A stretch of 36,445 bases of DNA from a bacterium (GTDB taxonomy: Bacteria; Verrucomicrobiota; Verrucomicrobiia; Limisphaerales; UBA11358): the NCBI GenBank assembly GCA_021780375.1, contig JAJXYT010000141.1, positions 1 through 36,445 on the forward strand, read 5' to 3'. The position numbers and the translations under genes were made by a program. How positions within the stretch are numbered: the first letter of the stretch is position 1; the number at the start of each line of letters is the position of its first letter. The notes under the pieces were generated by a model. It made no database searches. It had not been told where the DNA came from and was given only the letters and a program-made list of their open reading frames with translations. Below, piece after piece: positions 1,128 through 17,688 of the stretch.

Positions 1128-1164
1128 TCAATACGGCAAGGGAAACTTTACAGTCAACTCAAGG
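1128..1164 (-). repeat. glyA 3'-end copy G1 (diverged)
   Basis: On the minus strand this stretch encodes LELTVKFPLPY followed by TGA, against [15 protein letters not shown] at the end of the true glyA (4601-4643). Several changes are synonymous (for example TTT CCC TTG against TTT CCG CTG), so peptide and stop are conserved better than the DNA. It marks the left limit of the sigma-factor module 1165-2770. Confidence 0.75.
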
Positions 1165-1290
1165 GGACTTTGGCGCACTTTGGCCGCCGTGTCAAATCCG
1201 ATTTTTAGACACGAATTTCACGAATTAACACGAATTTGTTTGTTGAGTTTTGAATTGGTGCAAATCGGTGTAATCTATGTCCCTTTTTCC

Positions 1291-1312: not shown

Positions 1313-1328
1313 GTGCTATAAGTTGAAC

Positions 1329-2777: not shown

Positions 2778-2807
2778 GGCAGCGGAAACTTCGCCGTCAA
2801 CTCGCGC
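2771..2807 (-). repeat. glyA 3'-end copy G2
   Basis: 37 bp identical to the end of glyA except one base. The minus strand still encodes [15 protein letters not shown], the change being a synonymous proline codon. On the plus strand the same base change creates the TAA at 2775-2777 that ends the sigma gene. The copy separates the sigma module from the VapBC module. Confidence 0.9.
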
Positions 2808-2819
2808 CTGCACCCGACG

Positions 2820-3242
2820 TTATTTTTTCGGCGTCAGCAGGTGCACCTTGGGAAAATATCGGGAGATGCGGTCGGCATCGCGCGTGGCCAGTTTCCATCT
2901 CATGATTTCCGCGTGCGCGCCGATGAAAAAATCCGGGAGCGGAATTTTTGGCGCCAAGCCGCCGCCGGAAGCGCGCCGCGCCATGGCATAGTGACGGTGC
3001 GCTTTGCCGCAAACCGCCGCCGCCGCAGCCGGAATGTCCAATACTCGCAGCTCCCAATTCAGCAGATCGGCTTCGACGGATTCGGGATCGCGATCTCCGG
3101 CACACAATTCCGCGACGGTCACGGCATTGACGGCCGCGCCATCGCCAGCCGCTGCTTCAATGAGCAAGCTGGAGGCCCATTTAAAATGCTCCGACTTTTT
3201 ATCCAGAGCATCCAGAATCACGCTGGTGTCGAATAGAATCAT
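2820..3242 (-). CDS. PIN-domain ribonuclease toxin (VapC-like)
   Basis: A 140-residue PIN-domain protein, the usual VapC size. The acidic metal-binding residues are visible: D5 in MILFDTSVILDAL, E45 in VTVAELCAG, D104 in PLPDFFIGAHAEI, and D122/D124 in LATRDADRI. VapC toxins are Mg2+-dependent endoribonucleases that cut tRNA or rRNA and are held inactive by the partner antitoxin. Its ATG overlaps the antitoxin stop (ATGA, 3239-3242), so the two are translationally coupled. The module sits between glyA 3'-end copies G2 and G3. The cleavage target cannot be told from sequence. Confidence 0.88.
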   Translation of the reverse strand: MILFDTSVILDALDKKSEHFKWASSLLIEAAAGDGAAVNAVTVAELCAGDRDPESVEADLLNWELRVLDIPAAAAAVCGKAHRHYAMARRASGGGLAPKIPLPDFFIGAHAEIMRWKLATRDADRISRYFPKVHLLTPKK

Positions 3243-3466
3243 TCCCGCGTGAGCTTGCGCAATTCATCCCAGGACATCATTGGCTGCATCCTGCTGTGAA
3301 GGATCGCCTGGCGGATCTGCGCCCTGGTCTTTTTTTTCGGCGGCGGCGGCGGATTCAACCGCGCGAGCCAGAAATGATTCTCATCGCGTTGCTCGCAGAT
3401 GAAAACGTCCCCCGGTCTTGCGCCTGGAACCACCACGCGCTTTTTGCTGTCAGCGGTAACCGTCAT
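3239..3466 (-). CDS. VapB-type antitoxin (AbrB/SpoVT-like N-terminus)
   Basis: 75 residues. The N-terminal half (MTVTADSKKRVVVPGARPGDVFICEQ) has the swapped-hairpin/AbrB look of VapB DNA-binding domains. A PPPPPKKK linker follows, then a basic/acidic tail (MSWDELRKLTRE) suited to occupying the toxin groove. It precedes and overlaps the toxin by 4 nt. A perfect 8-bp dyad lies directly upstream of its start (3467-3483), as expected for an autorepressing antitoxin. Family assignment is by overall pattern and pairing, so moderately sure. Confidence 0.75.
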   Translation of the reverse strand: MTVTADSKKRVVVPGARPGDVFICEQRDENHFWLARLNPPPPPKKKTRAQIRQAILHSRMQPMMSWDELRKLTRE

Positions 3467-3497: not shown

Positions 3498-3540
3498 TCA
3501 ATACGGCAGCGGAAACTTCGCCGTCAACTCGCGCACGCGC
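3498..3540 (-). repeat. glyA 3'-end copy G3 (43 bp, identical to native)
   Basis: All 43 bases are identical to 4601-4643, the last codons and stop of glyA ([17 protein letters not shown] on the minus strand). The two copies flank the RAYT unit as direct repeats, with 1060 bp between them. Confidence 0.95.
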
Positions 3541-3546
3541 CGGCGC

Positions 3547-3717
3547 GTGGTGGCGGGCATCCTGCCTGCCGTGGAGCCGTGGCGTCCCGCCCGGCGGATA
3601 AAACGCAACGAACGCACAAATTGCGTTGAACAAATCCCGAACCGTCAAACGTTCCACCGTTCTTTCCGGGCGGCGGGACGCCGGCCCTCTACGGCAGGCG
3701 AAGACGCCCGCCGCTAC
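3547..3717. repeat. 170-bp palindromic MITE/REP-like element, left copy
   Basis: The element has ~50-bp near-perfect terminal inverted repeats. One arm begins GTGGTGGCGGGCATC and the opposite end reads GCCCGCCGCTAC. A ~70-bp AT-richer core contains AAATCCCGAACCGTCAAACG. A second, highly similar copy at 4431-4600 is in the same orientation on the other side of the RAYT gene. Elements like this are mobilised in trans by RAYT proteins. Confidence 0.85.
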
Positions 3718-3759
3718 ATCCGCACTTGCCGCTTTCACCGGTTGCTGTCAATTTTTGTC

Positions 3760-4434
3760 GTGCCCGACGCTGACAACCAGCCGGCGGATTCGACCCCACC
3801 AAGTCCATTGGTTTCCGGTTTGCATTTTCGCGGACAGTTGCCGCATCTGAAAAACGAAGGCGCCGTTTATTTCGTTACTTTCCGGCTCAACGATTCCTTG
3901 CCCGCTCATGAAATCGCCCGGCTCAAACACGAACGCAGTGTCATCCTTGAACAAGCCCGCGCCGCCAAACGCCCGCTCACCTGGCACGAGGAACAGAACC
4001 TGGTTGCCTGGTATTGTGACAAGGTTGAAGGGCTGCTTGATGCGGGCAGAGGCGCGTGTTGGATGAGCCGGACGGACGTGGCCGATCTTGTTGCGCGTGC
4101 GTTGAAATTCTTCGCCGGCCAACGCTATGAACTGCGCGCGTGGGTCGTCATGCCCAATCACGTTCACGCCATCGTCTGGCCGCTGGCCGGGCATGCGTTG
4201 AGCGAAATCCTGCACAGTTGGAAATCCTTCACGAGCAAGGAGGCGAACCAACTTCTGCATCGCGTCGGCGGGACGTTCTGGCAAAAGGAATCGTTTGATC
4301 ATTGGATTCGTGACGACGCCGAACGCGCGCAGTTGGTGGCTTACGTGGAAAATAATCCCGTGAGGGCGGGACTCTGCAAACGGCCTGGGGATTGGAAATG
4401 GAGTAGCGCTCGCGAGCGGGCACGGGCGACGTAG
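3760..4434 (+). CDS. REP-associated tyrosine transposase (RAYT, Y1/HUH superfamily)
   Basis: About 224 residues from GTG 3760; the in-frame codons further upstream only translate the palindromic element. The HUH metal-binding motif is present (MPNHVHAIVWPL), as are the RAYT hallmarks GTFWQKESFDHWIRDD and AYVENNPVRAGL, whose tyrosine is the likely nucleophile. The N-terminal part has the usual YFVTFRLNDSLP. RAYTs cut and join single-stranded DNA at REP hairpins. The stop TAG (4432-4434) falls inside the first bases of the right-hand palindromic element. The unit, element-RAYT-element, sits between two identical 43-bp glyA 3'-end copies. The start is uncertain (TTG 3742 is also possible). All core motifs are present, so it may be active. 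Confidence 0.9.
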   Translation: MPDADNQPADSTPPSPLVSGLHFRGQLPHLKNEGAVYFVTFRLNDSLPAHEIARLKHERSVILEQARAAKRPLTWHEEQNLVAWYCDKVEGLLDAGRGACWMSRTDVADLVARALKFFAGQRYELRAWVVMPNHVHAIVWPLAGHALSEILHSWKSFTSKEANQLLHRVGGTFWQKESFDHWIRDDAERAQLVAYVENNPVRAGLCKRPGDWKWSSARERARAT

Positions 4435-4600
4435 CGGCGGGCATCCTGCCTGCCGTGGAGCCGGCGCGTCCCGCCCGGCGGATAAAACCCGACGAACACC
4501 CAAGCTGCGTTGAAAAAATCCCGCACCGTCAATCGTTTCACCGTTCTTTCCGGGCGGCGGGACGCCGGCCCTCCACGGCAGGCAAGATGCCCGCCGCTAC
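4431..4600. repeat. 170-bp palindromic MITE/REP-like element, right copy
   Basis: Same element as 3547-3717. The terminal repeats are clear: GTAGCGGCGGGCATC at the left end and GATGCCCGCCGCTAC at the right end. The right end abuts the complement of the glyA stop codon with no spacer. The left end supplies the RAYT stop codon. Confidence 0.88.
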
Positions 4601-4643
4601 TCAATACGGCAGCGGAAACTTCGCCGTCAACTCGCGCACGCGC
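4601..4643 (-). repeat. Native glyA 3' end, reference copy of the G repeat
   Basis: These are the last 14 codons and stop of glyA. They contain an imperfect dyad (arms ACGGC and GCCGT around a GC-rich centre). Copies are at 3498-3540, 2771-2807 and 1128-1164. Confidence 0.93.
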
Positions 4644-6778
4644 TGCCGGACCTTGTGCGCCGCCTCGACGTTTTTAATATCCATCAGCACTTCCGAAATC
4701 ATATCGGCGATGGCCGCCATTTCCGGTTCCTGCATGCCGCGCGTCGTCACCGCCGGCGTGCCCAGCCGGATGCCGCTGGCCTGAAACGGCGAGCGGGTCT
4801 CGAAGGGAATGGTGTTTTTGTTGACGGTGAGGCCGGCCTCGTCGAGCGCAATCTGGCACTCCTTGCCGGTCAGGTTTTTCACCCCCACGTCCACGAGCAT
4901 CAAATGATTGTCCGTGCCGCCGCTGACCAGCCGATAGCCGTTGTGCTTCATGCCTTCCGCCAGCGCCTTGGCGTTCTTCACGATTTGTTCCTGGTAAGTT
5001 TTGAATGCCGGTTGCAGGGCTTCCTGGAAACAAACCGCCTTGCCGGCGATGACGTGTTCCAGCGGCCCGCCCTGGATGCCGGGAAATACGGTGGAATCAA
5101 TTTCCTTCGCGAATTTTTCGCGGCACAAAATCAGCCCGCCGCGCGGCCCGCGCAAGGTTTTGTGCGTGGTGGTGGTCACGAAATCCGCATGCGCCATCGG
5201 GCTGGGATGGATGCCCACCGCCACCATGCCGGCAATGTGCGCGATGTCCGCCAGCAGGTACGCGCCGGCTTCGCGGGCGATTTCGCCCATGCGCTGAAAA
5301 TCAATGATGCGCGGATACGCGCTGGCGCCGACAGTGATCATGCGCGGCCTATGCTCGCGCGCCAGGGCGGCGAGTTGGTCGTAATCGATCCGTTCGTCGT
5401 CTTTGCGGACACCGTAATGAACGATTTCGAAAAATTTGCCGGAGAAGTTGGCCTTGTTGCCATGGGTCAGATGCCCGCCGTGGCTCAAATCCATCGTCAG
5501 CATCTTGTCGCCGGGTTTGAGCACGGCGAAATAGACGGCCATGTTCGCCTGGCTGCCGGAATGCGGCTGCACGTTGACATGTTCCGCGCCGAACAATTTT
5601 TTCGCGCGGTCAATCGCCAACTGCTCGATCGTATCAATGTTTTCGCATCCGCCGTACCAGCGTTTCTTGGGCAGGCCCTCGGCATATTTGTTGGTGAGCA
5701 CCGAACCCTGGGCCTCCAGAACCGCCGGGCTGACAAAATTTTCGCTGGCGATCAATTCGATGTTTTCCTGCTGGCGCAGGCGCTCGTGTTCGATGGCCTC
5801 GGCCACGATGGAATCCACGGCGCGCAGGCGCAATTGCGGCGGGACCGCATCTGCTTCGATTTTGTGGACCCGCCGTTCGTGACGGCCGCCTTCAAATTTT
5901 GCGTTCAGAAAGGCGTCGAGGATTTTCCGCCCCAGCTCGGGCGACGTCGTTTTGCCGGACAGGCAAAGGACATTCGCGCCGTTGTGCTGCCGCGCCAGGG
6001 CGGCGGCCTGCTCGTCGGTCACCAGCGCGGCGCGGACGCCGGGGACTTTGTTCGCCGCGATGCTCATGCCGACGCCGCTGGTGCACACCAGCAGGCCGAG
6101 TTCCGCCTGGCCCGCCGCCACGGCTTCCGCGACCGGCTGGGCAAAATCAGGATAATCATCGCCGGGTTCCTTTGATTTCGCGCCGAAATCCGCGAGGCTC
6201 AACCCGCGCTGCTGCAAATGCTGCTTCAGCGCTTCCTTCAATTCATAACCGCCGTGATCCGCGCCCAGGGCGAAGTTCACGGTCACCACGGGTTTCGGGA
6301 CGTGCGGGACCGACAGAATTTTGTGCTGTTCCATAAATTTCAACAACGAAGCGACCCCCTGCTCGATTTGATTGCGGCAATGCTCATAGATTTCGTAGGA
6401 ACCGCCGATCGGATCGCTGATGTCCTTTTCAAATTCTTCCAGCGTTTCGTCAAATTCGCGCAACAGAAAGGTTTTGTCCGCCGCCTGCGGATACAACAGC
6501 ACAATCGTGTCCACGTGGCTGTGCGTCATGCCGAAGATATAATCCGCGTCCCTGACCAGTTCCGCCGTCAGCGCCCGGCTGCGGTGCGCGGAAATATCCG
6601 TGCCCCATTCGCGCATGGCCTGGACCGAATGCGGAGTGGGCGGCTGGTCGTTCATCGCGCCCAACCCGGCCGACAAGGTGCGAAATTCCCCGCGCCCGTT
6701 CGTGGCGCGGCGAAAAAGCCCTTCGGCCATCGGGCTGCGGCAGACGTTTCCGGTGCAGACAAAAAGGACGGTTTTCAT
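4601..6778 (-). CDS. glyA: Triple fusion: LMW phosphatase - ribose-5-phosphate isomerase B - serine hydroxymethyltransferase
   Basis: One uninterrupted 725-residue frame holds three enzymes. Residues 1-155 are a low-molecular-weight phosphatase: P-loop CTGNVCRS with C8 and R14, and the general acid in DISDPIGGS (D122). Residues 168-300 are RpiB ([22 protein letters not shown] with C232; H265). Residues ~316-725 are SHMT, converting serine and tetrahydrofolate to glycine and methylene-THF, with the PLP lysine at K540 in [18 protein letters not shown] length (~410) is normal, so none of the parts looks truncated. In Bacillus, ywlE, rpiB and glyA are near neighbours, so this may be an operon collapsed into one gene. 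YwlE-type arginine phosphatases have Thr where this P-loop has Val (GNVC), which favours a tyrosine-phosphatase-like specificity. The 3' end is the source of repeats G1-G3. Confidence 0.95.
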
Positions 6779-8022: not shown

Positions 8023-8081
8023 GGAATGGCAACAAGGTTCTGCCAGAACTCGCGGCTCGCGAACCAAAGCTTCCTGATTTT

Positions 8082-8104
8082 TGTCGGATTTCCGCCGTGG
8101 GCGG
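8082..8104 (+). promoter_or_regulatory. Shared sigma-gene promoter-like motif, copy 2
   Basis: TGTCGGATTT at 8082-8091 and GGCGG at 8100-8104, 18 bp start to start, 18 bp before the ATG at 8123. Same arrangement as at 10613 and 14600. Confidence 0.6.
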
Positions 8105-8122
8105 CGATATACTTTTAAAAGC

Positions 8123-9778
8123 ATGACAAGCGATTTGGATTTGCTGCGGCAATTTGCTCGCGAAAATGCGCAGGACGCGTTTGGCGAAATCGTCCGGCGC
8201 CATCTGAATCTGGTGTATTCCGCGGCGCTGCGCCAGGTCCGGTCGCCGCAACTGGCCGAAGAAGTCGCCCAATCCGTCTTCGCCGACCTCGCGCGCAGCG
8301 TCGGCAAAATCCTGCATGGCGGCGACGCCTCGTCGCCAAAAACTCTGACGCCGTGGCTTTACGCCGTCACGCGCCGGACCGCGATTGACGTGGTCCGCAA
8401 GGAATCGCGCCGGCAGTTGCGCGAACAAATCGCCGTGGAGATGAACAATATGAACGCGACTGCCAATGAATGGACGCAAATCGAACCGCTGCTCGACGAC
8501 GCGATGGCTGCGCTGGACGAAACCGACCGCAGCGCGGTTTTGCTCCGTTATTTTGAAAACAAAAGCCTGCGCGAAGTTGGCGAAGCGCTGAACGCATCCG
8601 AGGACGCCGCTCAAAAGCGCGTGAGCCGCGCCGTTGAACGGCTGCGCGAATTTTTTACAAAACGCAACGTGACGATTGGCGCGAGCGGACTGGCCGTTTT
8701 GATCTCCGGCAACGCCGTCCAATCCGCGCCAATCGGATTGGCCGGTGCCATTTCCACTGCCGTCGCTCTTGCCGGGACTACTGTTTCAACTTCAACTGCA
8801 ATCGCCGCAACCAAAGTTATCGCCATGACTACATTGCAAAAAACAGTTATCGGAGCGGCGCTCGCCGCGGCCGTTGGAACCGGAGCTTACGAAGCGCATC
8901 AAGCCTCGCAATTGCAAGGGCAAGTCCAGACGCTTCAGCAACAGCAAGCGCCGCTCGCCGAACAAATCCGTGAATTGCAGCGCGAGCGCGATGATGCGAC
9001 GAACCAAGTGGCCGGGTTGCTGGCGGAAATCGCTCAATTGAAGTCCAACTCAAATGAAAATGAACTTCTCAAATTGCGCAGTGAAGTAACGAAGCTGCAA
9101 AATCAAGCAAACGATCCAACGGCTGTTGCCGCAAAGGACTGGCTGGAGCGATTCAACCAGCTCAAACAATGGGCGGAGCAAAACCCCGCGGCTGCGATCC
9201 CGGAATTTCAGCTTCTTACCAAGCAGGATTGGCTGAACGCAGCCCAAAAACCGCTCAATACCGACGTGGATTATCGCCGCGCCATGAGTTCTTTGCGGGG
9301 CGCTGCGGGAAGCAAATTTGAGAACATGCTAGAGCAAGCGTTAGCCAAGTATATGCAAGCCAACAACGGGCAATTCCCCACCGCTCTCTCCCAACTTGAG
9401 TCCTTCTTCGATTCGCCGGTGGATGAAGACATTTTACAACGGTGGGAAATCGTATCGTCAAAAGGCGTTCCCGGTTTCGGTGCGCCGCCAGGAGAAAACA
9501 TAATAACCGAAAAAACAGCCGTGGACGACTTCCTGGATTCGCGCATCATCATTGGTCCAGGCGGAGGTTATACCGTTGGAGATTGGCTATCCGGAGAACT
9601 CGCGGATACTTTGTTTCCCGTTTACCGAGCGTTTGACAAGGCAAATCCGCAATCAAATGGCCCATTACAATTTCAAAATATTAAACCTTCCCAATATCTG
9701 CCCTACGCGACAACGCCGGCACAACGAGCCGCCGTCCAAAAGCTGATCGAGCAACAGCAGTTGCGGTCAGCACCGTAG
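8123..9778 (+). CDS. Membrane-tethered ECF-like sigma factor 2
   Basis: 551 residues. Region 2 is at ~8-75 (FGEIVRRHLNLVYSAALRQV, LAEEVAQSVFADLARSV) and region 4 at ~135-185 (RSAVLLRYFENKSLREVGEAL, AQKRVSRAVERLREFF). The block NVTIGASGLAVLISGNAVQS is shared almost word for word with sigma factors 3 and 4. A transmembrane segment (~245-262, TVIGAALAAAVGTGAY) and a Gln/Glu-rich coiled coil (~265-340) follow. A shared C-terminal module ends in ALAKYMQANNGQFPTALSQL then DSPVDEDILQRW; a diverged second copy may form the last 50 residues. The start is ATG 8123, directly after the conserved promoter-like motif. A membrane-anchored design suggests self-regulation by an outer or membrane domain; no separate anti-sigma gene is adjacent. 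Confidence 0.85.
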   Translation: MTSDLDLLRQFARENAQDAFGEIVRRHLNLVYSAALRQVRSPQLAEEVAQSVFADLARSVGKILHGGDASSPKTLTPWLYAVTRRTAIDVVRKESRRQLREQIAVEMNNMNATANEWTQIEPLLDDAMAALDETDRSAVLLRYFENKSLREVGEALNASEDAAQKRVSRAVERLREFFTKRNVTIGASGLAVLISGNAVQSAPIGLAGAISTAVALAGTTVSTSTAIAATKVIAMTTLQKTVIGAALAAAVGTGAYEAHQASQLQGQVQTLQQQQAPLAEQIRELQRERDDATNQVAGLLAEIAQLKSNSNENELLKLRSEVTKLQNQANDPTAVAAKDWLERFNQLKQWAEQNPAAAIPEFQLLTKQDWLNAAQKPLNTDVDYRRAMSSLRGAAGSKFENMLEQALAKYMQANNGQFPTALSQLESFFDSPVDEDILQRWEIVSSKGVPGFGAPPGENIITEKTAVDDFLDSRIIIGPGGGYTVGDWLSGELADTLFPVYRAFDKANPQSNGPLQFQNIKPSQYLPYATTPAQRAAVQKLIEQQQLRSAP

Positions 9779-9803: not shown

Positions 9804-9887
9804 TCAGAACGCCTTCGCCGCGATGTCGCGGCGGAAATGCGCGCCGTCGAAATGGATTTTCTCCCCGGCGGCGTAGGCGGCGGCTTG
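9804..9887 (-). repeat. purD 3'-end copy P1 with stop codon
   Basis: The minus strand encodes AAAYAAGEKIHFDGAHF, then RRDIAAKAF and TGA, matching the C-terminus of purD at 16396-16490 (AAYAAAEKICFEGAQF, RRDIAAKALE). Most differences are at third codon positions. It is nearly identical to P3 (13901) and differs clearly from native purD. It contains the dyad CGCCGCGACATCGCGGCG. Confidence 0.92.
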
Positions 9888-9901
9888 ACGGGCGGGCATG
9901 G

Positions 9902-9919
9902 CTGTCTTAAACTGTCTTA
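9902..9919 (+). promoter_or_regulatory. Tandem CTGTCTTA repeats before the RHH antitoxin
   Basis: Two exact CTGTCTTA copies start 10 bp apart (9902 and 9912), one helical turn, and end one base before the antitoxin ATG at 9921. RHH antitoxins bind tandem half-sites, so this is a plausible autoregulatory operator. Confidence 0.5.
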
Positions 9920-9920
9920 C

Positions 9921-10139
9921 ATGAGAGCGACGTTGACCATCAGCCTGCCGCTTGCGCTGCGGCGAAATGTTTCGCGCGCTGCCAAGAGCCAGCGCGTGAC
10001 TGAGAGCGAGTTCGTGCGCGATGCCGTGCGCCGCCGGCTGGCACTGGATCGCTTTCGCGGGCTGCGGGATCGCGCGCAGGCGCAAGCCGAGGCGCAGGGC
10101 ATCTACACCGACGAAGACGTTTTCAAAATCGTTTCGTGA
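9921..10139 (+). CDS. Ribbon-helix-helix antitoxin
   Basis: 72 residues from ATG 9921; longer in-frame versions only translate repeat P1. The N-terminus MRATLTISLPLALRRNV is a typical RHH beta strand, followed by helices containing SEFVRDAVRRRLALDRF. The charged tail (RAQAQAEAQGIYTDEDVF) is the expected toxin-binding segment. It overlaps the PIN toxin start by 4 nt (GTGA). It forms the 660-bp module between purD copies P1 and P2. Confidence 0.85.
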   Translation: MRATLTISLPLALRRNVSRAAKSQRVTESEFVRDAVRRRLALDRFRGLRDRAQAQAEAQGIYTDEDVFKIVS

Positions 10140-10540
10140 GGGTTTTGTTCGACACGAATGTCCTGGCATCCGCCTTCACTTCATCCGGGCTTTGTCATCT
10201 GGCTTACGAACGCGCGATTATCCGCGCCGATCTCATCACCGCCCCGCGCTTGCTGGATGAACTTCAGCGCACGCTGGCCAACAAGATGAAAATCGAGGTC
10301 GGACTTGCCGGCGAAATCCGCGCGGAGTTGGAAACTGAACTGGAAATCATCGAGCCGGAAGCGCTGCCAGAACCCATTTGCCGTGACAAAGACGATGACT
10401 GGGTGCTGGCCACGGCCCTGGCTGGCAAAGCCGGCATCATCGTTTCCGGTGACAAGGACCTGCTCACGCTCAAGGAATTTGGCGGAATCAAAATCCTTAC
10501 GCCCCGGCAGTTTGTGGAACTGATTAACGCGCAAAAATAG
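10136..10540 (+). CDS. PIN-family toxin (COG1569-like)
   Basis: 134 residues from GTG 10136. PIN-domain acidic residues are D6 (RVLFDTNVLASAF), E42 (APRLLDELQRTL), D88 (RDKDDDWVLATAL) and D106/D108 (VSGDKDLL). The ending IKILTPRQFVELI is typical of the 'toxin component, PIN family' group. Probably an endoribonuclease neutralised by the upstream RHH protein, with which it is translationally coupled. It is not closely similar to the VapC-like toxin at 2820-3242, so the two modules were acquired separately. Confidence 0.88.
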   Translation: MRVLFDTNVLASAFTSSGLCHLAYERAIIRADLITAPRLLDELQRTLANKMKIEVGLAGEIRAELETELEIIEPEALPEPICRDKDDDWVLATALAGKAGIIVSGDKDLLTLKEFGGIKILTPRQFVELINAQK

Positions 10541-10550
10541 TTTGCTGCAT

Positions 10551-10593
10551 CGCCTTCGCCGCGATGTCACGGCGGAAATGCGCGCCGTCGAAA
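10551..10593 (-). repeat. purD 3'-end copy P2 (short)
   Basis: About 43 bp encoding SFDGAHFRRDIAAKA on the minus strand, one base different from P1 and P3 over the shared core and lacking the 5' half of the longer copies. It lies between the RHH/PIN pair and sigma factor 3. Confidence 0.85.
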
Positions 10594-10612
10594 GAAATGT
10601 TCACCATTTCTC

Positions 10613-10634
10613 TGTCCGATTTTAGCAATGGCGG
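10613..10634 (+). promoter_or_regulatory. Shared sigma-gene promoter-like motif, copy 3
   Basis: TGTCCGATTT at 10613-10622 and GGCGG at 10630-10634, 17 bp start to start, 14 bp before the GTG start at 10649. Confidence 0.58.
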
Positions 10635-10648
10635 TTACTGTTCAATGA

Positions 10649-12220
10649 GTGAATCATCTGACCGACCAACAGCTCCTGCGCGATTATGCCGGGCACCGGT
10701 CGGAGGCCGCTTTTGCGGAAATTGTGCGGCGGCACGTTGACCTGGTTTATTCCGCGGCGTTGCGCATGGTTTGCGATGCGCACCTGGCCGAAGACGTGAC
10801 GCAAGGGGCTTTCGTGGCCTTGGCCCAGAATGCCCGGCGACTCACGGATCATCCCGTCCTATCCGGCTGGCTGCATCGCACGGCACAGAACCTCGCGGCG
10901 AACGTCGTTCGTTCCGATGTCCGTCGCCGCGCCCGCGAACAGGAGGCCGTTACCATGAACGAATTGCTCGCCGCCGGACCTGAAACTAATTGGGAAGCCA
11001 TTGCGCCGCATCTTGACGCCGCGCTAAGTGAATTGAGTGAGGCCGACCGTGACGTTGTGCTGCTCCGATATTTTGAGAAGAAATCCGCACAGGAAATGGC
11101 CGGCCTGCTCGGCATCAGCGATGAAGCTGTGCAAAAGCGCGTAAGCCGCGCTGTGGAACGGCTCCGCGAATTTTTCTCAAAACAAAAGATTACGATTGGC
11201 GCAAGCGGACTGGCCGTTTTGTTTTCCGCCAACGCCGTCCAGTCCGCGCCGATTGGAATGGCCGCTACGATTACCGCTGCCGCCCTTCTGACGGGGACGG
11301 CAGTCTCGACTTCAACCGCCATCGCCACAACGAATGCTATTGCCATGACTACACTCCAAAAAACCATCGTTGCCGCGATGCTCACCGCCGCCGTTGGAAC
11401 CGGAGTTTACGAAGCGCATCAAGCCTCCCAAATGCGCGGGCAAGTCCAAACCCTCCAGCAACAGCAAGCGACGCTGGCCGAACAAATGCGCCAGTTGCAG
11501 CACGAACGCGATGACGCGACCAACCGGTTGGCCGGATTGTTTGCGGAAAACGAACAATTGCAGTCGGGTCAGAACGAAACCGAGCTATTGAAATTGCGCA
11601 GCGAAGTCGGAAGCCTGCGAAACGATTCTCAAGAATTAGCGCAATTGAGGTCGGCGATCACAAACGACCCGGCGGAATCCGCCGCGAAATCCTGGCTGAA
11701 TCGCGTCAGCAACCTCAAGCAAAGACTGGAGCAAATGCCGAACAGGAAAATTCCAGAAATGCAGTTTCTCACGGATCAGGATTGGCTGCGAATCACCAGC
11801 ACAGGCAATTTCGACACGGACGCTGATGTTCGTCGCGCCTTGTGCCATCTTCGCGAGGACGCCAAGGAATACCTTGCGCCCTTGATCGGGAAGGCGTTAG
11901 GCAAGTATGTCGCGGCGAACGCCGGCAGTTTGCCGACCGAGGTTTCGCAACTGGCGGCGTATTTCGAGCCCCCGATTGACGATTCCATCCTTCAGCGGTA
12001 CCAAATGTTAAAGACCGGCGACGCGAGTAACTTATCAATGAACGAAATGGTCATTGGCGAGAGGGGACCGCCGGTCGATAACGAATACGACACGGTCTTC
12101 CAAATCGGACTTGGCGGCTATAGATCGGAAGGGGTCGGCAATATCCATGCTACCAGCATGGGCAATTTCAGTGCCAGTTGGCATTACGATCCCAGATTCG
12201 ACCGGACTCTGGACAAGTAG
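10649..12220 (+). CDS. Membrane-tethered ECF-like sigma factor 3
   Basis: 523 residues from GTG 10649. An ATG 4 bp upstream is out of frame and closes at 10738. Region 2: FAEIVRRHVDLVYSAALRMV and LAEDVTQGAFVALAQNA. Region 4: RDVVLLRYFEKKSAQEMAGL and VQKRVSRAVERLREFF. The ITIGASGLAVLFSANAVQS block, a membrane helix near 240-258 (TIVAAMLTAAVGTGVY) and a QTLQQQQ coiled coil match sigma factors 2 and 4. The C-terminal module has ALGKYVAANAGSLPTEVSQL and EPPIDDSILQRYQML; this occurs once here. It lies between purD copies P2 and P3 and converges on the broken permease. Confidence 0.85.
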   Translation: MNHLTDQQLLRDYAGHRSEAAFAEIVRRHVDLVYSAALRMVCDAHLAEDVTQGAFVALAQNARRLTDHPVLSGWLHRTAQNLAANVVRSDVRRRAREQEAVTMNELLAAGPETNWEAIAPHLDAALSELSEADRDVVLLRYFEKKSAQEMAGLLGISDEAVQKRVSRAVERLREFFSKQKITIGASGLAVLFSANAVQSAPIGMAATITAAALLTGTAVSTSTAIATTNAIAMTTLQKTIVAAMLTAAVGTGVYEAHQASQMRGQVQTLQQQQATLAEQMRQLQHERDDATNRLAGLFAENEQLQSGQNETELLKLRSEVGSLRNDSQELAQLRSAITNDPAESAAKSWLNRVSNLKQRLEQMPNRKIPEMQFLTDQDWLRITSTGNFDTDADVRRALCHLREDAKEYLAPLIGKALGKYVAANAGSLPTEVSQLAAYFEPPIDDSILQRYQMLKTGDASNLSMNEMVIGERGPPVDNEYDTVFQIGLGGYRSEGVGNIHATSMGNFSASWHYDPRFDRTLDK

Positions 12221-12290
12221 TTCTCTGCTTGTCATCCACTTTACCCCTCCCGCACGGCGCCAGAACGTCTTGGTGGGATGTGTACCGTAT

Positions 12291-13836
12291 TCAGGAATTT
12301 CTGCTGGTGGCTGAACTCAGCTGGCTGCGCCGCAATCCGTAGGGAAAGTAGATCAGCAGTCCAAATCCGAGCCAGAGAATGAAGCGCCACCAGGTTACGC
12401 GCGGCAACTGGGCCATCAGCCAGCCGCAGGAAAGGATCGCGGCCAACGGTACCCACGGACACAGCTGCGCGCAACGACCGCCGGCGGTCGGGGTCCGTGT
12501 GCCGCAGAACCAAAATGCCGGCTGCCACCAGCACGAAGGCGAAAAGCGTGCCGATGTTGCAGAGCTCGACCACTTCATTAATGTTCATGACGCCCGCAAA
12601 GCCCGCCACCAGGACCCCGGTCAGGATGGTCGTCACGTGCGGCGTGCGGTGCCGCGGATGGACCTTTGCTGCCCAGGCCGACAACAAACCGTCGCGCGCC
12701 ATGCTGAAAAAAATGCGCGGTTGGCCGAGTTGAAAAACGAACAGCACCGAGGTGTTCGCCACCAGCGCTCCGACCGAGATAATGCCGACCGCCCAGTTCA
12801 GTCCCAGCCCCGAAAACGCCATGGCCAGTGGCTCGGCGGTGTCCAATTGGTTCCCGTGCATAAGGCCGGTCAGCACCACCGCCACCACGAAGTAGAGGAC
12901 GGTGCAAATGGCGAGGCTGGCGAGAATGCCGATCGGCACGTTTCGCTGCGGCTGGCGGGTTTCCTCGGCTGCGGTCGAAACCGCGTCAAAACCGATATAG
13001 CCAAAAAAGATGATCACGGCCGCACTGGTGATGTCGGCCCAGCCGTTGGGCGCGAACGGCGTCCAATTCTCCAGCTTCACGTAGAACGCGCCCAACGCCA
13101 TGAAGAAAACGAGGATGACGAGCTTCACGATCACCATCGCCGAATTGAACCAGGAGCTTTCGCGAATGCCGCGGACCAGATTCCAGGTCAACAGCATCAC
13201 AATGCTGAACGCGCGCACATTGAAGATGAGCGGCACACCGGCGAGGCGCGGCGCATCGGCAAACGCCTGGCCCGCCAGTCGCACACCCGCGTCCAGGGTC
13301 GCCGGACCGGCGCCGGCGGCCTTGGCGGCGGCGACCTACCTCGCCGCCTGCAGGGCGGAGCGAAAATCCACGCCCAGCCATAATGGCCGGTGGAGGCCAA
13401 ACCCGCGCAGCAGTTCCTGAAAGTATCCTGACCACGAGATCGCCACCGCGATGTTGCCGACGGCGTATTCGAGGATGAGGTCCCAACCGATAATCCACGC
13501 GACCAACTCGCCCAGCGTGACGTAAGCATAGCTATAAGCCAAACCCGATACCGGCACCATGGCGGCGAATTCCGCGTAGCACAGCCCCGCGAAGCCGCAC
13601 GCGATCGCCGACACCACAAATGACAGAATGATCGCCGGACCGGCGCCGGCCTGGTCCGTGCCGCCCGCCACTGCGGCGACGATGGAGGAGAAAATACCGG
13701 CGCCGATAACCGCCCCCACCCCGAGCAGCAGCAGGTGCACCGGGCCGAGCGCGGGTTTGAGTTGAAATTGCGGGGCAATCGTCTCCGCGGCCTGTTGGTC
13801 GAGCGACTTGCAGCGAAAGAGGCGGGAAAGCATCAT
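12291..13836 (-). pseudogene. Broken APC-family (cationic amino-acid-type) permease
   Basis: The two halves of the gene lie in one frame, separated by a single TAG (complement of 13336-13338) in the sequence FRSALQAAR-stop-VAAAKAAG. A second lesion, a one-base shift near 12470-12490, moves the C-terminus into another frame (CPWVPLAAILSCGW ... LIYFPYGLRRSQL). The start is likely MMLSRLFRCKSLDQ. The family signature GVGAVIGAGIFSSIV is intact, with ~12 hydrophobic segments and FFGYIGFDAVSTAAEETRQP. The full length of ~500 codons fits CAT-type permeases. Two independent lesions argue for a real pseudogene, although sequencing error cannot be excluded. It shares the P2-P3 interval with sigma factor 3. 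Confidence 0.85.
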
Positions 13837-13900
13837 CGCGTCAAATGGCCGGACAACCGACATGCACTATCCACGTCATCGAAAAATATTCTCGTGGCCA

Positions 13901-13986
13901 AAACGCTTTCGCCGCGATGTCGCGGCGGAAATGCGCGCCGTCGAAATGGATTTTCTCCCCGGCGGCGTAGGCGGCGGTTTGCGCGG
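13901..13986 (-). repeat. purD 3'-end copy P3
   Basis: The minus strand encodes QTAAYAAGEKIHFDGAHF then RRDIAAKAF, without a stop. It is almost identical to P1 (two or three differences) and differs from native purD at many synonymous sites and four residues. It lies between the permease pseudogene and the decayed toxin-antitoxin pair. Confidence 0.92.
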
Positions 13987-14032
13987 GTATCGTAGCGTTG
14001 ACCGCATTGACACATCCGGCTACCTTGGGTTC

Positions 14033-14362
14033 GTGCGGCACGAACTCACGGATGAAATTAGCCGGTCGCTGGGCCGTCGCGTGGCGGAGCGGTTGAGCCA
14101 ACAGCCGGAATTGCTTCAGGTCGCCCGCGACAATCTGGACCGCTGGAGCCGACGCAACGCGAGCGTCCCCAGCCTGCTGCGTTGCTACGCGGAATGGCGC
14201 GCGATTTTGGAGCGTCCGCTGGAAGAGATTTGCAGTCTTCTGAATTCCGACAGCGAGGAAGCCCGCCGGTTGCGCCAGAACTCGCCCTTCGCCGGCGTGT
14301 TAAGCCCGCGGGAAGTCTGGGAGTTGAAGCGGCGTTTCCGTCATGAAACGGCCGCAGCTTGA
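14033..14362 (+). CDS. Small antitoxin-like protein of a decayed nucleotidyltransferase-type pair
   Basis: About 109 residues from GTG 14033; upstream in-frame codons translate repeat P3. It contains RRVAERLSQQPELLQVARDN, CYAEWRAILERPLEEICSLL, and RQNSPFAGVLSPREVWELKR. I recognise the pattern as the small partner gene that precedes a nucleotidyltransferase-like protein in many bacterial two-gene modules. The following frame begins MKRPQLEHIIRAA inside this gene's 3' end, as expected for such a pair. A TTGACC...TACCTT pair (13998 and 14021, 17-bp spacer) could be its promoter. The partner is truncated, so the gene is probably an orphan. Function is by analogy. Confidence 0.6.
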   Translation: MRHELTDEISRSLGRRVAERLSQQPELLQVARDNLDRWSRRNASVPSLLRCYAEWRAILERPLEEICSLLNSDSEEARRLRQNSPFAGVLSPREVWELKRRFRHETAAA

Positions 14363-14463
14363 ACATATCATCCGCGCCGCCGCCCCGGCATCACGGGTGC
14401 GACAGAAATCGTCGTCATCGGCAGCCAGGCGGTGCTGGGGCAGTTTGAACCGCTAATGCAGCG
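14343..14463 (+). pseudogene. Truncated, frameshifted nucleotidyltransferase-like toxin
   Basis: It starts at ATG 14343 (MKRPQLEHIIRAAA), overlapping the partner gene by 20 nt. After ~14 codons a one-base shift is needed to continue into ITGATEIVVIGSQAVLGQFE (from 14390), the start of a nucleotidyltransferase fold. The original frame stops at 14454-14456. Coding similarity ends where purD copy P4 begins (about 14465), so most of the gene is gone. Confidence 0.7.
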
Positions 14464-14464
14464 A

Positions 14465-14543
14465 AACACCTTCGCCGCGAATGTCGCGGTGGAAGTGTGC
14501 GTCGTCGAAATGAATTTTCTCCACGGCAACGCAGGCGGCGGTG
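14465..14543 (-). repeat. purD 3'-end copy P4 (degenerate)
   Basis: The minus strand reads CVAVEKIHFDDAHFHRDI, then a one-base insertion shifts the remaining AAKVF. It is clearly purD-derived but the most decayed copy, so probably the oldest. It separates the toxin remnant from sigma factor 4. Confidence 0.85.
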
Positions 14544-14599
14544 GGTGCATTTCTCACCCCCCTGGCCAACAACGTCTTACCTGAATGGTTGAAAAACTT

Positions 14600-14621
14600 T
14601 GTCGGATTTTTACCGGGGCGG
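14600..14621 (+). promoter_or_regulatory. Shared sigma-gene promoter-like motif, copy 4
   Basis: TGTCGGATTT at 14600-14609 and GGCGG at 14617-14621, 17 bp start to start, 7 bp before ATG 14629. Such a short distance would give a nearly leaderless mRNA. Confidence 0.6.
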
Positions 14622-14628
14622 TTGTTTA

Positions 14629-16353
14629 ATGGGTGAGATGCAGGCAGAGTCAGATGCTCAACGGCTCCGGGACTACGCCGAACGCGGCAACGAAGCGGCA
14701 TTCCGCGAAATCGTCACGCGGCACACGGATTTGGTGTATTCCGCCGCCTTGCGACAGGTGGACTCCTCCGATCTGGCGGCGGACATTACCCAAAAAGTTT
14801 TTGTGGACCTGGCGCGCAAGGCCAAACCAGTGGCTGACCGGCTGGCGGCGGAGGCTTCCTTGGCCGGCTGGCTGCACCGCGCCTCGCGCTACGCGGCGCT
14901 AAATCATTTGCGCGACCACCGGCGCCGGCTCGCAAACGAAAGGCAAGCCATGAATCAACTTCTTACCAATGCCGAATCTTCTGCGGACTGGGAACAAATC
15001 CGGCCGGTGCTGGATGAAGCGCTCGACAGCCTCGGCGATGAAGACCGTGAGGCTTTGCTGCTCCGCTATTTCAAGAATCAGGATTTTCGCGCCGTCGGCC
15101 TGGCACTGGGTGTGAGCGACGATGCCGCGCAAAAGCGCGTCAGCCGTGCCGTGGACCGGTTGCGCGAATTTTTCAGCAAACGAAACGTGACGATCGGCGC
15201 GAGCGGGCTGGCGGTTTTGATTTCCGCCAACGCCGTTCAATCCGCGCCGATTGGTTTAGCTGCTGCCATTTCCACTGCCGTTCTTGCTGGAGCCGCCGTT
15301 CAAACCTCAACTGTCATTGCTGCAACCAAAACCATCGCCATGACTGCCCTGCAAAAAACTCTTATCACCGCTACTGTTGCCGTTCTGGCCGGAGGCGGAA
15401 TTTACGAAGCCAAGCAAACTGCGGATGCCCGCGCCGAAGTCCAGACGCTCCAGCAACAGCAAGCGCCGCTGGCCGGGCAAATCCGGCAATTGCGGCAAGA
15501 ACGGGATGACGCCACGAACCGATTGGCGGCCCTGGAAGCGGAAAACGCGCAATTGCAGGCTGACCAAAACGAGGCCGAGCTTCTGAAATTGCGCGGCAAT
15601 GTGGCGCGGTTGCAGGACACTGAAAATGACCCTTTCGTAAAACTGGCATTGGCCTTTAAAGCGAAGAAGGAAAAGTTACTGCAACTTTTTGCCGAACGGC
15701 CGGAATTTTATGTGCCCGAAATACAATTGCTCAACGACAAGGACTGGCTCGACATTATCAGAAAGGCGGACCGGGAATCCACAAACTGGTTCGACCAGAC
15801 AATTGCGGGAAAATCCGATGAAGAAATTAAGCAGAGCGGAATTGGTTCGGCATTGGGTGATGTAATACAGGCAGCCCTGAAGAAATTTGCTCCGATGGTG
15901 CAGGAAGCGCTGAAATCTTTTATGGATTCACATGCCGGACAGCGACCCGGTGCCATTTCGGACCTGAAACCTTACTTTGAACCGCCGGTGGATAATGCCA
16001 TGCTCAACCAGTACAAGTTGCTTTCCCCCGGAATAAAGAATCCCTTGTTTGGGGACAAAGATTTAACTGATAGCTATGTAGTGACAAGAAAAGAGGGAGT
16101 GGACTTTGCAAATCCTTTATGCATCGGTCCAAATGGTTACTATGATGTCCTGGCGGCTGAAGTCGCGGAGTTAAATGGCATTCTAAAACCGATCACGGGC
16201 GCATTTGCCGCTGCAAACCATAACGCCATGCCATCATCACTCAGCCAGATGGAGCCTTACATCATTACGCCAGACCAACAAAAAGCCTTCGATGACTACA
16301 ATAAATTACTGAAAAGTATTCAGATAAATTTTCCGTGGTTTCATTACCCTTAA
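14629..16353 (+). CDS. Membrane-tethered ECF-like sigma factor 4
   Basis: 574 residues from ATG 14629, the largest of the four. Region 2: FREIVTRHTDLVYSAALRQV and LAADITQKVFVDLARKA. Region 4: REALLLRYFKNQDFRAVGLAL and AQKRVSRAVDRLREFF. It shares the NVTIGASGLAVLISANAVQS block, a membrane helix (~255-272, LITATVAVLAGGGIY) and the QTLQQQQ coiled coil with factors 2 and 3. Two copies of the C-terminal module are visible: ALKSFMDSHAGQRPGAISDL with EPPVDNAMLNQYKLL, and later AFAAANHNAMPSSLSQMEPY. It converges on purD with a 42-bp gap between stop codons. Ligand and target promoters are unknown. Confidence 0.86.
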   Translation: MGEMQAESDAQRLRDYAERGNEAAFREIVTRHTDLVYSAALRQVDSSDLAADITQKVFVDLARKAKPVADRLAAEASLAGWLHRASRYAALNHLRDHRRRLANERQAMNQLLTNAESSADWEQIRPVLDEALDSLGDEDREALLLRYFKNQDFRAVGLALGVSDDAAQKRVSRAVDRLREFFSKRNVTIGASGLAVLISANAVQSAPIGLAAAISTAVLAGAAVQTSTVIAATKTIAMTALQKTLITATVAVLAGGGIYEAKQTADARAEVQTLQQQQAPLAGQIRQLRQERDDATNRLAALEAENAQLQADQNEAELLKLRGNVARLQDTENDPFVKLALAFKAKKEKLLQLFAERPEFYVPEIQLLNDKDWLDIIRKADRESTNWFDQTIAGKSDEEIKQSGIGSALGDVIQAALKKFAPMVQEALKSFMDSHAGQRPGAISDLKPYFEPPVDNAMLNQYKLLSPGIKNPLFGDKDLTDSYVVTRKEGVDFANPLCIGPNGYYDVLAAEVAELNGILKPITGAFAAANHNAMPSSLSQMEPYIITPDQQKAFDDYNKLLKSIQINFPWFHYP

Positions 16354-16395
16354 GCGCCTTTTTAATTTTTAAGAATTTACGGTTTGGCGTGAAAT

Positions 16396-16486
16396 TCATT
16401 CCAACGCCTTCGCCGCGATGTCGCGGCGGAACTGAGCGCCCTCAAAACAGATTTTTTCCGCAGCGGCATAAGCTGCCGTTTGCGCG
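16396..16486 (-). repeat. Native purD 3' end, reference copy of the P repeat
   Basis: The last 30 codons and stop of purD. It contains an 8-bp perfect dyad with 2-nt centre (CGCCGCGA-CA-TCGCGGCG) within the RRDIAA codons. Copies P1-P4 lie at 9804, 10551, 13901 and 14465. Confidence 0.92.
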
Positions 16487-17688
16487 GCTTTCAAATCCTT
16501 TCCCAGCGCGGTCACGCCCAGAACACGGCCGCCGTTCGTGACGATCTGTCCGTCCTTCGACGCCGTCCCCGCGTGAAAGACTTTCGTGTCCGGCAGTTTC
16601 GCCGCTTCATCCAAACCTCGGATGGGTTTGCCCTTGGGATAACCCCCGGGATAACCTCCACTGGCCATCACCACGCAAACCGACGCCCTCGGACTCCATT
16701 TCAATTCCACTTTGCCGAGCGTTCCATTCACGCTCGCGTCAAGTAGTTCAACCAGATCGTTTTCCAGCCGCGTCAGATAAACCTGCGTTTCCGGGTCACC
16801 GAAACGCGCATTGAATTCCAACACCTTCGGCCCATTTTTCGTGAGCATGATACCGGGATAGAGGATGCCACGGAAATCGATCCCCTCGACGGCACAACCA
16901 CGCATGAACGGCTCAAGAATCTTGCGGCCGGTTTCGGCCAATTCTGTTTCACTCAGGAATGGTGTTGGACAGTATGTTCCCATGCCGCCGGTGTTCAACC
17001 CCTGGTCGCCGTCGAGCGCGCGCTTGTGGTCCTGCGACGTCGGGAACAATTTTGCCGTTTGACCGTCACACAGCGCGTGCAGCGAAATCTCGATGCCTTC
17101 AAGAAATTCCTGAATGACAATTTTCGCGCCAGCCGCGCCAAAAGCCTTGCTGACGAGGATTTCGTCAATCGCCCTGTTTGCCTCGGCAACACCGGTGCAG
17201 ATCAGCACGCCCTTGCCCAGGGCCAGTCCGTCGGCTTTTACGGCGCACCTGCCGTCGAGGGATGCCGCGAAGGCCTTGGCCGGCCCGGCCGCCGAAAATG
17301 TTCCCGCCTTTGCCGTCGGGATGCCAAATTTTTCCATGAAATTCTGGGAGAAGACCTTTGAGGATTCAAACTGTGCCGCCTTTTGGTTTGGCCCCCAGAT
17401 CCGCAGGCGGTTTATCTGGAACAAATCCACGATGCCGAGTGCGAGCGGATTGTCCGGGCCGACGACGGTCAGTTCGATTTTCTTCTCCTGAGCGAACGCC
17501 AGCAGCTTCGGCAAATCTTCCGCGCCGATATTAACACACTCAACCGGCGCATCGTTTTTCACGAGCCGTTCCTGGGCGATGCCGACGTTGCCCGGCGCGC
17601 ACCAGAGTTGGGTGATGTGCGGCGATTGCGCGAGTTTCCAAACCAGCGCGTGTTCGCGTCCACCCGAACCGATGACCAGGAGTTTCAT
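16396..17688 (-). CDS. purD: Phosphoribosylamine--glycine ligase
   Basis: 430 residues, the normal length. It catalyses ATP-dependent joining of glycine to 5-phosphoribosylamine in purine synthesis. The N-terminal motif MKLLVIGSGGREHALVWKLA is diagnostic. The ATP-grasp segment includes AVKADGLALGKGVLIC and later GVEGIDFRGILYPGIMLT-type sequence (VEGIDFRGILYPGIML), ending with LEFNARFGDPETQ. The C-terminal AQTAAYAAAEKICFEGAQF then RRDIAAKALE is the source or target of repeats P1-P4. It is not in an operon with purM (21452-22557), which lies 4 kb away on the same strand. Confidence 0.97.
   Translation of the reverse strand: MKLLVIGSGGREHALVWKLAQSPHITQLWCAPGNVGIAQERLVKNDAPVECVNIGAEDLPKLLAFAQEKKIELTVVGPDNPLALGIVDLFQINRLRIWGPNQKAAQFESSKVFSQNFMEKFGIPTAKAGTFSAAGPAKAFAASLDGRCAVKADGLALGKGVLICTGVAEANRAIDEILVSKAFGAAGAKIVIQEFLEGIEISLHALCDGQTAKLFPTSQDHKRALDGDQGLNTGGMGTYCPTPFLSETELAETGRKILEPFMRGCAVEGIDFRGILYPGIMLTKNGPKVLEFNARFGDPETQVYLTRLENDLVELLDASVNGTLGKVELKWSPRASVCVVMASGGYPGGYPKGKPIRGLDEAAKLPDTKVFHAGTASKDGQIVTNGGRVLGVTALGKDLKAAQTAAYAAAEKICFEGAQFRRDIAAKALE

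Follow-up and report, generated by a model that had tools for sequence, protein, structure and literature searches.

We found that short copies of the ends of housekeeping genes bound small gene cassettes, often toxin-antitoxin pairs, in a bacterium of the order Limisphaerales (Verrucomicrobiota; UBA11358) and in its relatives. The stretch of DNA that we analyzed, called the window here, is 36,445 nucleotides long and is the entire contig C35 (JAJXYT010000141.1) of assembly GCA_021780375.1 (4.01 Mb in 210 contigs, 84.7% complete). Copies of the 3' end of purD divide one part of the window into an array of short intervals, and copies of the 3' end of glyA divide another part in the same way. 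Repeats of this kind are strongly enriched around toxin-antitoxin loci, the copies differ from the native gene ends mostly at synonymous sites, and one junction between a gene end and its cargo is conserved across families. We lean, with slightly better than even confidence, toward the view that these are homology-armed cassettes, mostly with no recombinase of their own, that would enter by homologous recombination.

Results

Gene ends divide the window into two arrays

An earlier note, made from the sequence alone, had reported four copies of the purD 3' end in addition to the native one. All five ends are present, at refined positions (Table 1). With the outermost copy (c1) as query, the whole assembly gave five matches at E <= 0.001 (E values from 1.6e-14 to 3.1e-41), all of them inside the window. 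The copies are all in the sense of purD (minus strand) and span 43-85 bp of the gene, with an end point 6-7 bases short of the end of the stop codon. This outer border may be just where conservation of the coding sequence stops; therefore, the border inside the gene is the informative one. The intervals are 0.5-3.3 kb long. The order from purD outward is a sigma factor gene, c4, an open reading frame (ORF) of an uncharacterized family, c3, a permease remnant plus a sigma factor gene, c2, PIN and ribbon-helix-helix (RHH) genes, c1, and a further sigma factor gene.

The interval between c1 and c2 is predicted to encode a type II toxin-antitoxin pair of the RHH/PIN type, in agreement with the earlier note. 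The toxin belongs to a known family (TIGR00305, 58.9 bits vs a cut-off of 29.15), and relatives of the RHH protein, whose own Pfam match is below the cut-off, carry CopG/RHH names. Pfam domains likewise bore out the sigma factor gene with the broken amino-acid permease, the one next to the native purD end and the one to the left of c1. The interval between c3 and c4 (13985-14464; interval D) had been read as a decayed toxin-antitoxin pair, and this was not confirmed. Its ORF had no family match in Pfam, NCBIfam or PADLOC and belongs to an uncharacterized family of 739 relatives; among the 120 listed, all with readable names are called 'hypothetical protein'. Proteins of this family are often ~109 aa. 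The tail of interval D was read from the sequence by eye.

The second array, at glyA, was also found as described: three copies of the gene end lie beyond the native one, and the three intervals hold a sigma factor gene, a VapBC-type pair and an element with a REP (repetitive extragenic palindromic)-associated tyrosine transposase (RAYT). The small partner in the VapBC-type pair (3239-3466) had no family match. The RAYT element has REP-like repeats, with 154-bp direct repeats at either end. The gene that supplies the end in this array encodes low-molecular-weight phosphatase (LMWP), RpiB and serine hydroxymethyltransferase (GlyA) domains in series. In one relative, G001 (G numbers are relatives' genomes, G000 is the source genome, and L numbers are loci or stretches), an ORF of equal length (725 aa) is at the same place. 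A 28-bp glyA copy in G001 overlaps the stop codon of a sigma factor gene, as one copy in the window does.

Flanking repeats are enriched around toxin-antitoxin loci

We compared toxin-antitoxin loci to random windows for the presence of flanking direct repeats. A repeat was counted if it had a score of at least 45 and passed a complexity filter, both applied mechanically. The set from the source genome (n = 15) includes all of its PF01850 and PF07927 matches. The other sets are the best-scoring matches returned, at most 30 per search, and the counts cover these loci. Flanking repeats were present at 39 of the 123 pooled toxin-antitoxin loci but at only 24 of 1000 random windows (odds ratio 19, Fisher p 2e-24). 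The flanking repeat included an ORF edge at 32 of the loci vs 8 of the random windows. By set, the counts were 7/15 (PIN and HicA, source genome), 13/52 (PIN and HicA, genus), 11/29 (ParE, genus) and 8/27 (PIN_3, order-wide). Phylum-wide HicA loci, excluded from the pool, gave 4/27, and cold-shock control loci gave 1/22.

Loci near contig ends were unscored: 3/55 in the genus PIN and HicA set, 2/29 for PIN_3, 1/30 for ParE and 1/28 for phylum-wide HicA. L322 is outside the phylum-wide HicA count, L294 and L296 are outside the cold-shock control (22 of 24 loci used), and the RHH-PIN pair at purD is outside the scored sets. The repeats at three loci in the source genome (L114, L123 and L126) look like dispersed REP-type sequence. 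Two of these, L123 and L126, look REP-like rather than like gene edges and are still counted in the 7/15 because the filter was mechanical.

None of nine toxin-antitoxin operons of Escherichia coli K-12 had such flanks. Because the comparison of 0/9 with 39/123 gives only p 0.06, restriction of the design to this lineage is likely, not proven. The earlier note had argued for a system rather than chance duplication. The enrichment around toxin-antitoxin genes, together with the many unrelated genes and the relatives involved, supports that argument.

Duplicated edges occur at many genes

Gene ends recur elsewhere in the same genome. A direct-repeat scan of 607,928 bases (the window and 40 stretches) found 66 pairs, many of them internal or paralogous. 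Thirteen genes with family matches have a duplicated edge or near-edge, 5' or 3': purD, glyA, mnmA, pheS, gamma carbonic anhydrase, aconitase/3-isopropylmalate dehydratase, guaA, a short-chain dehydrogenase/reductase enzyme, CCA tRNA nucleotidyltransferase, hisS, a phosphorylase (5'), a ThiS-family gene (5') and a DUF1501 gene. A leuC-like gene is among those showing the purD-type design, here or in relatives; the leuC repeat (23 bp, score 41) is under the filter threshold. Three further edge genes were read by eye from the sequence: purQ (L156), a thrS-like gene (L176) and a cas4-like ORF (L203). At L203:1394-2264, a PIN_3 gene lies between two copies of what appears to be the 5' part of the cas4-like ORF, which has no Pfam match. 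The repeat pair at L091 involves nuclease-like fragments. Repeats are mostly <150 bp, and longer ones, e.g., L199 (280 bp), are of low complexity.

The clearest case besides purD and glyA is mnmA on contig C12. Its 5' end with upstream sequence is present three times, and each of the two intervals holds a HicA toxin gene and a HicB-like partner (the partner identified by eye). In G027, the 5' end of purD is duplicated around two small ORFs that may be an antitoxin/PIN pair, as read by eye; the larger (135 aa) is unmatched in Pfam. The earlier note had considered 3' ends only. That limit was too narrow given the 5' cases at mnmA, at purD in G027 and at a phosphorylase. In G013, a HicAB-like pair lies between pheS ends (HicB_lk_antitox above the cut-off, HicA_toxin below).

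Several copies resemble the genes of other species

We analyzed the differences within 22 copy/native pairs. The 150 differences were distributed 29/23/98 over the three codon positions, and 63 were nonsynonymous, whereas random changes would give 116. For a copy drifting neutrally next to a gene under constraint, ~93 nonsynonymous differences would be expected (62%, a figure from our own model). The observed number was lower than this (p 8e-7), also after dropping c2 and c3 because of their common history with c1 (p 6e-6). That is, the copies appear not to be simply decayed in-situ duplicates.

We collected the corresponding ends from relatives for purD and pheS. Copies c1-c3 were 91-95% like the purD ends of G001, G010 and G020 vs 82-87% like their own native end. 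For c1, identity was 95% to the G001 end and 82.5% to its own; for c3, it was 92% to the ends of G020, G001 and G010 and 84% to its own. Over the whole of purD, G000 and G001 are 75.5% identical. In G000, the pheS copy shared 97% identity with the ends of that gene in G017 and G003 but 82% with its own native end, which ranked last of 21 ends. Judged by these identities, the arm looks foreign in ancestry for purD c1-c3 and for pheS in G000. The two pheS ends in G013 have just four differences, each of them synonymous and confined to the final 15 bp, a pattern such as a crossover would leave.

A gene end and its cargo are conserved as a unit

We compared purD loci in relatives, a check that the earlier note had proposed, and found different sets of units at different positions. 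A copy of the purD 3' end was downstream of the gene in 1 of 20 loci fetched (G001), and a copy of the 5' end was found in one more (G027). Among 80 named purD loci, four were flagged: L326, L327, L382 (a self-match) and L386. In the last, from Nitrospinaceae (outside Verrucomicrobiota), a 39-bp stretch of the purD 5' end is repeated ~1.35 kb upstream of the gene (L386:4550-4587). The bog_1418 locus (L326) reads, starting from purD, PIN-RHH, copy, an unassigned interval, copy, sigma, copy, sigma. At the UBA7542 locus (L327), purD is followed by three sigma factor genes, each with a copy after it. In G001, a homologue of the RAYT in the window, with REP-like ends, separates the native purD end from a copy of 55 bp (L052:10807-11853).

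The RHH-PIN units of G000 and bog_1418 align over 203 and 242 bp at their two ends, which include the purD ends (75-78%), and the proteins between those ends match at 50% (PIN) and 62% (RHH). Counted from purD, this unit is fourth in G000 and first in bog_1418. A genome from another family, G045, has a sigma factor gene, a purD end, RHH and PIN in G000-like order. The junction between the purD end and the RHH gene is kept in these three genomes. The 19.9 kb read at the G045 site held no purD other than this fragment, nor glyA, S41, cydA or purM.

The junction also appears in protein relatives. Of 262 RHH relatives found, 120 were listed, and 48 of these are extended at the N-terminus by 10 residues or more. 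In 17 of the 48, by a score rule of our own, the extension reads the purD end antisense (P0141 is among them); these counts show presence, not frequency, because the RHH query contained the purD-end reading. In the interval-D family (120 listed of 739), 8 of 27 N-termini read the purD end antisense, six of them clearly. One of the six is the window's own cluster, and five lie outside. The N-termini of both the RHH and the interval-D proteins read the purD end; thus, two unrelated cargos have one arm. Based on these comparisons we infer that arm and cargo travel together.

The sigma units are related to one another

The sigma factors in the window are of the extracytoplasmic function (ECF) type, 523-584 aa long, with the sigma domains within the first ~190 residues. 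Their intervals are homologous to one another. The gene at 10649-12220 groups with the third sigma factor of the UBA7542 purD array, and the gene at 8081-9778 groups with sigma factor genes beside purD in G001 and bog_1418. Related sigma units are separated by purD ends in other species too and are partly common between species. The sigma units at purD are probably an older tandem array of a duplicated purD end plus sigma factor gene. The earlier note had set a single ancestral tandem duplication against the idea of a system; this probably applies to the homologous sigma intervals. The genes beginning at 8081, 10649 and 14599 have alike upstream stretches (TTTGTCGGATTTT-like), by eye, perhaps a shared self-regulated promoter.

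Features of the window

The coordinates of both arrays are collected in Table 1. Elsewhere in the window, purM (21452-22557) seems to carry a frameshift: the match to AIRS_C covers only positions 1-90 of 156, and an apparent C-terminal part is in a different frame at 21452-21658.

Table 1. Gene ends, copies and cargo of the glyA and purD arrays, by position in the window.
Feature	Position	Strand	Remarks
glyA-end copy, diverged	1128..1175	-	
ECF-type sigma factor at glyA array	1323..2777	+	Pfam
glyA-end copy, 97% over 37 bp	2771..2807	-	overlaps sigma stop codon
VapBC-type pair between glyA ends	2820..3466	-	PIN 2820-3242, PF01850 E 7.3e-12
glyA-end copy, 100% over 43 bp	3498..3540	-	
RAYT element between glyA ends	3546..4583	+	REP-associated tyrosine transposase 3547-4434
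LMWP-RpiB-GlyA fused gene	4601..6778	-	3' end 4601-4643 reused
ECF-type sigma factor left of c1, array anchor	8081..9778	+	Pfam sigma domains
purD-end copy c1	9808..9887	-	
RHH antitoxin (predicted)	9921..10139	+	upstream region adjoins c1; PF01402 (RHH_1) E 0.0034, below cut-off
PIN-domain toxin (predicted)	10136..10540	+	PF13470 E 1.6e-13; TIGR00305 above cut-off
purD-end copy c2 (43 bp)	10551..10593	-	98% to c1
ECF-type sigma factor between c2 and c3	10649..12220	+	Pfam sigma domains
Amino-acid permease remnant, broken	12241..13863	-	AA_permease_2 on 12244-13284 piece
purD-end copy c3	13902..13986	-	94% to c1
ORF of uncharacterized family (interval D)	13985..14362	+	739 relatives
purD-end copy c4	14465..14541	-	86% to c1, E 2.5e-18; 1-nt insertion
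ECF-type sigma factor between c4 and native end	14599..16353	+	Sigma70_r2/r4, TIGR02937
purD (glycinamide ribonucleotide synthetase), host gene with reused 3' end	16396..17688	-	matches in 28/30 genomes searched, own included
Native purD 3' end, reference copy	16403..16482	-	

Discussion

Our results are consistent with the following series of events. A cassette would typically consist of one toxin-antitoxin pair, sometimes a RAYT element, plus ~25-150 bp of a conserved gene edge that would serve as a homology arm. Arriving as free DNA or in some other vehicle, it would enter by homologous recombination, probably of the RecA type, between the arm and the gene copy already in the genome. The gene would be left intact and the cassette would lie between two direct repeats. 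Once one copy is present, further cassettes with the same arm could land beside it, and arrays would grow. Recombination between the repeats could remove a cassette, and toxin-antitoxin addiction would select against that loss. If the conserved ends of universal genes are the arms, then any related genome would be a set of ready landing pads. It is possible that these are a new class of mobile unit, that is, recombinase-less, addiction-stabilized cassettes with housekeeping-gene ends as homology arms and arrays forming there. We offer this tentatively, at somewhat less than an even chance.

Several observations weigh against entry by homologous recombination between such arms. We observed no excised circle, no transfer and no recombination event, and an arm of only 25-60 bp is short for RecA. 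The unit in G045 is away from purD, and therefore purD homology did not place it there. No flanking repeat was present at 84 of the 123 toxin-antitoxin loci, and most loci are from metagenome assemblies. The pheS copies in other genomes are not strikingly foreign: their own native end ranks third (G013) and 11th (G002) of 21. A test for clustered differences in 30 pairs gave a modest outcome (5 at p<0.05, combined 3e-4; 4 further pairs had too few differences). Some pairs look like plain drift, including that of gamma carbonic anhydrase (5/4/5 by codon position), where the copy is followed by an apparent antitoxin remnant (by eye), as a tandem duplication leaves. A cassette common to G018 and G007 looks vertically inherited. 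Viral contigs had no match to one exact degenerate pattern of the purD end and, by the search used, encoded no PIN_3 relative. Relatives of the PIN protein were found in 14 plasmid records, all at <60% identity.

The strongest rival is a recombinase acting in trans, for which the gene edges would be attachment (att) sites and the cassettes would be cis-mobilizable relics of integrative elements, with only the addictive toxin-antitoxin genes kept. We regard this as unlikely, if still worth serious consideration. At gene 3' ends, guaA included, the blocks of identity measure tens to ~150 bp and resemble att duplications, the tandem units resemble accretion, and the inner border at pheS is alike by eye in G000, G002 and G013. 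However, the family-matched target genes number thirteen and include 5' edges, and several cassettes hold little more than one operon. Among 20 window proteins scanned with Pfam, there was no integrase, and the RAYT was the only protein of a recombination type; this search did not extend to the rest of the genome. Nor is there enrichment of the one candidate core. CGGCGAA was at first found in 6 of 16 edges (a count of 6 was reached in 5 of 300 random gene-edge sets), and this signal vanished with 38 segments (4/38, with 2.1 expected; a count of 4 was reached in 81 of 500 random sets). The commonest 7-mers are GC-rich and occur in 6/38 segments (no null). The test covered exact, not degenerate, cores.

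It is improbable that the copies arose in situ, with a fragment captured at a staggered break that left a long target-site duplication, insertions at gene edges surviving because the gene is restored. The variable length of the repeats fits such an origin, as do the near-identical pairs (glyA, 43/43; L252, 98%; L269, 97%). The synonymous bias of the differences does not, nor do the purD and pheS copies in G000 that resemble other species more than the native gene, nor the finding of one arm-cargo junction in distant genomes.

Slightly less probable still is that nothing moved and that a gene end was duplicated in tandem with its cargo, the copies then diverging and decaying. Tandem duplication probably explains part of the sigma units, which are homologous and common to several species, and the remnant past the gamma-carbonic-anhydrase copy, in our reading, is in line with it. 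In contrast, neighboring intervals hold unrelated cargo (the PIN pair, the RAYT and sigma factors), the two HicAB pairs at mnmA differ by eye, the pheS copy is foreign-like, and the RHH-PIN unit in G045 is found away from purD. Assembly chimeras that joined conserved gene ends of co-assembled species are very improbable: most loci are in metagenome bins and some copies look foreign, but a mis-join should yield one gene end rather than a cassette between two, the junction recurs in independent assemblies, and the purD and glyA copies in G001 are on one 319-kb contig.

The cargo and the array logic are familiar; boundaries made of housekeeping-gene ends are not. Integrons carry arrays of small gene cassettes, often toxin-antitoxin genes, split by a recurring sequence. 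The arrays in the window likewise have small cargo, often toxin-antitoxin genes, with a recurring separator. However, the separators here are ordinary gene ends that vary by locus, and no integrase was found in the scan described above. Cis-mobilizable and integrative elements that accrete in tandem at gene 3' ends also have units flanked by direct repeats of a gene end, with the gene restored, and att-like direct repeats, a trait of such elements, are present here. The differences are the use of 5' ends as well, the short purD intervals, the lack of enrichment of the candidate 7-mer and, RAYT aside, the lack of a recombinase among the window proteins scanned. RAYT/REP elements are themselves cargo, at glyA in G000 and, as a homologous element, at purD in G001, whereas gene-end copies also enclose cargo without a RAYT. 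In homology-facilitated illegitimate recombination, a single homologous anchor captures foreign DNA; here, in contrast, the repeats are mostly short and the RHH-purD junction is conserved.

The toxin-antitoxin cargo comes from the families of known chromosomal type II modules (vapBC, hicAB, parDE), although the E. coli K-12 operons lack the flanks. According to a 2020 review (PMC7167474), the mechanisms of movement and integration of toxin-antitoxin systems 'remain unelucidated', and their sites of insertion seem not to be random. Our literature search, judged from titles and the starts of abstracts, recognized no description of the present arrangement.

Small cassettes between duplicated ends of housekeeping genes suggest that toxin-antitoxin pairs can spread without a recombinase. 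Dozens of loci in one bacterial order offer insertions with both ends still visible, and therefore entry, choice of target and loss are testable. If gene-edge arms suffice, then selfish pairs could spread by host recombination alone, and conserved genes would be their landing pads.

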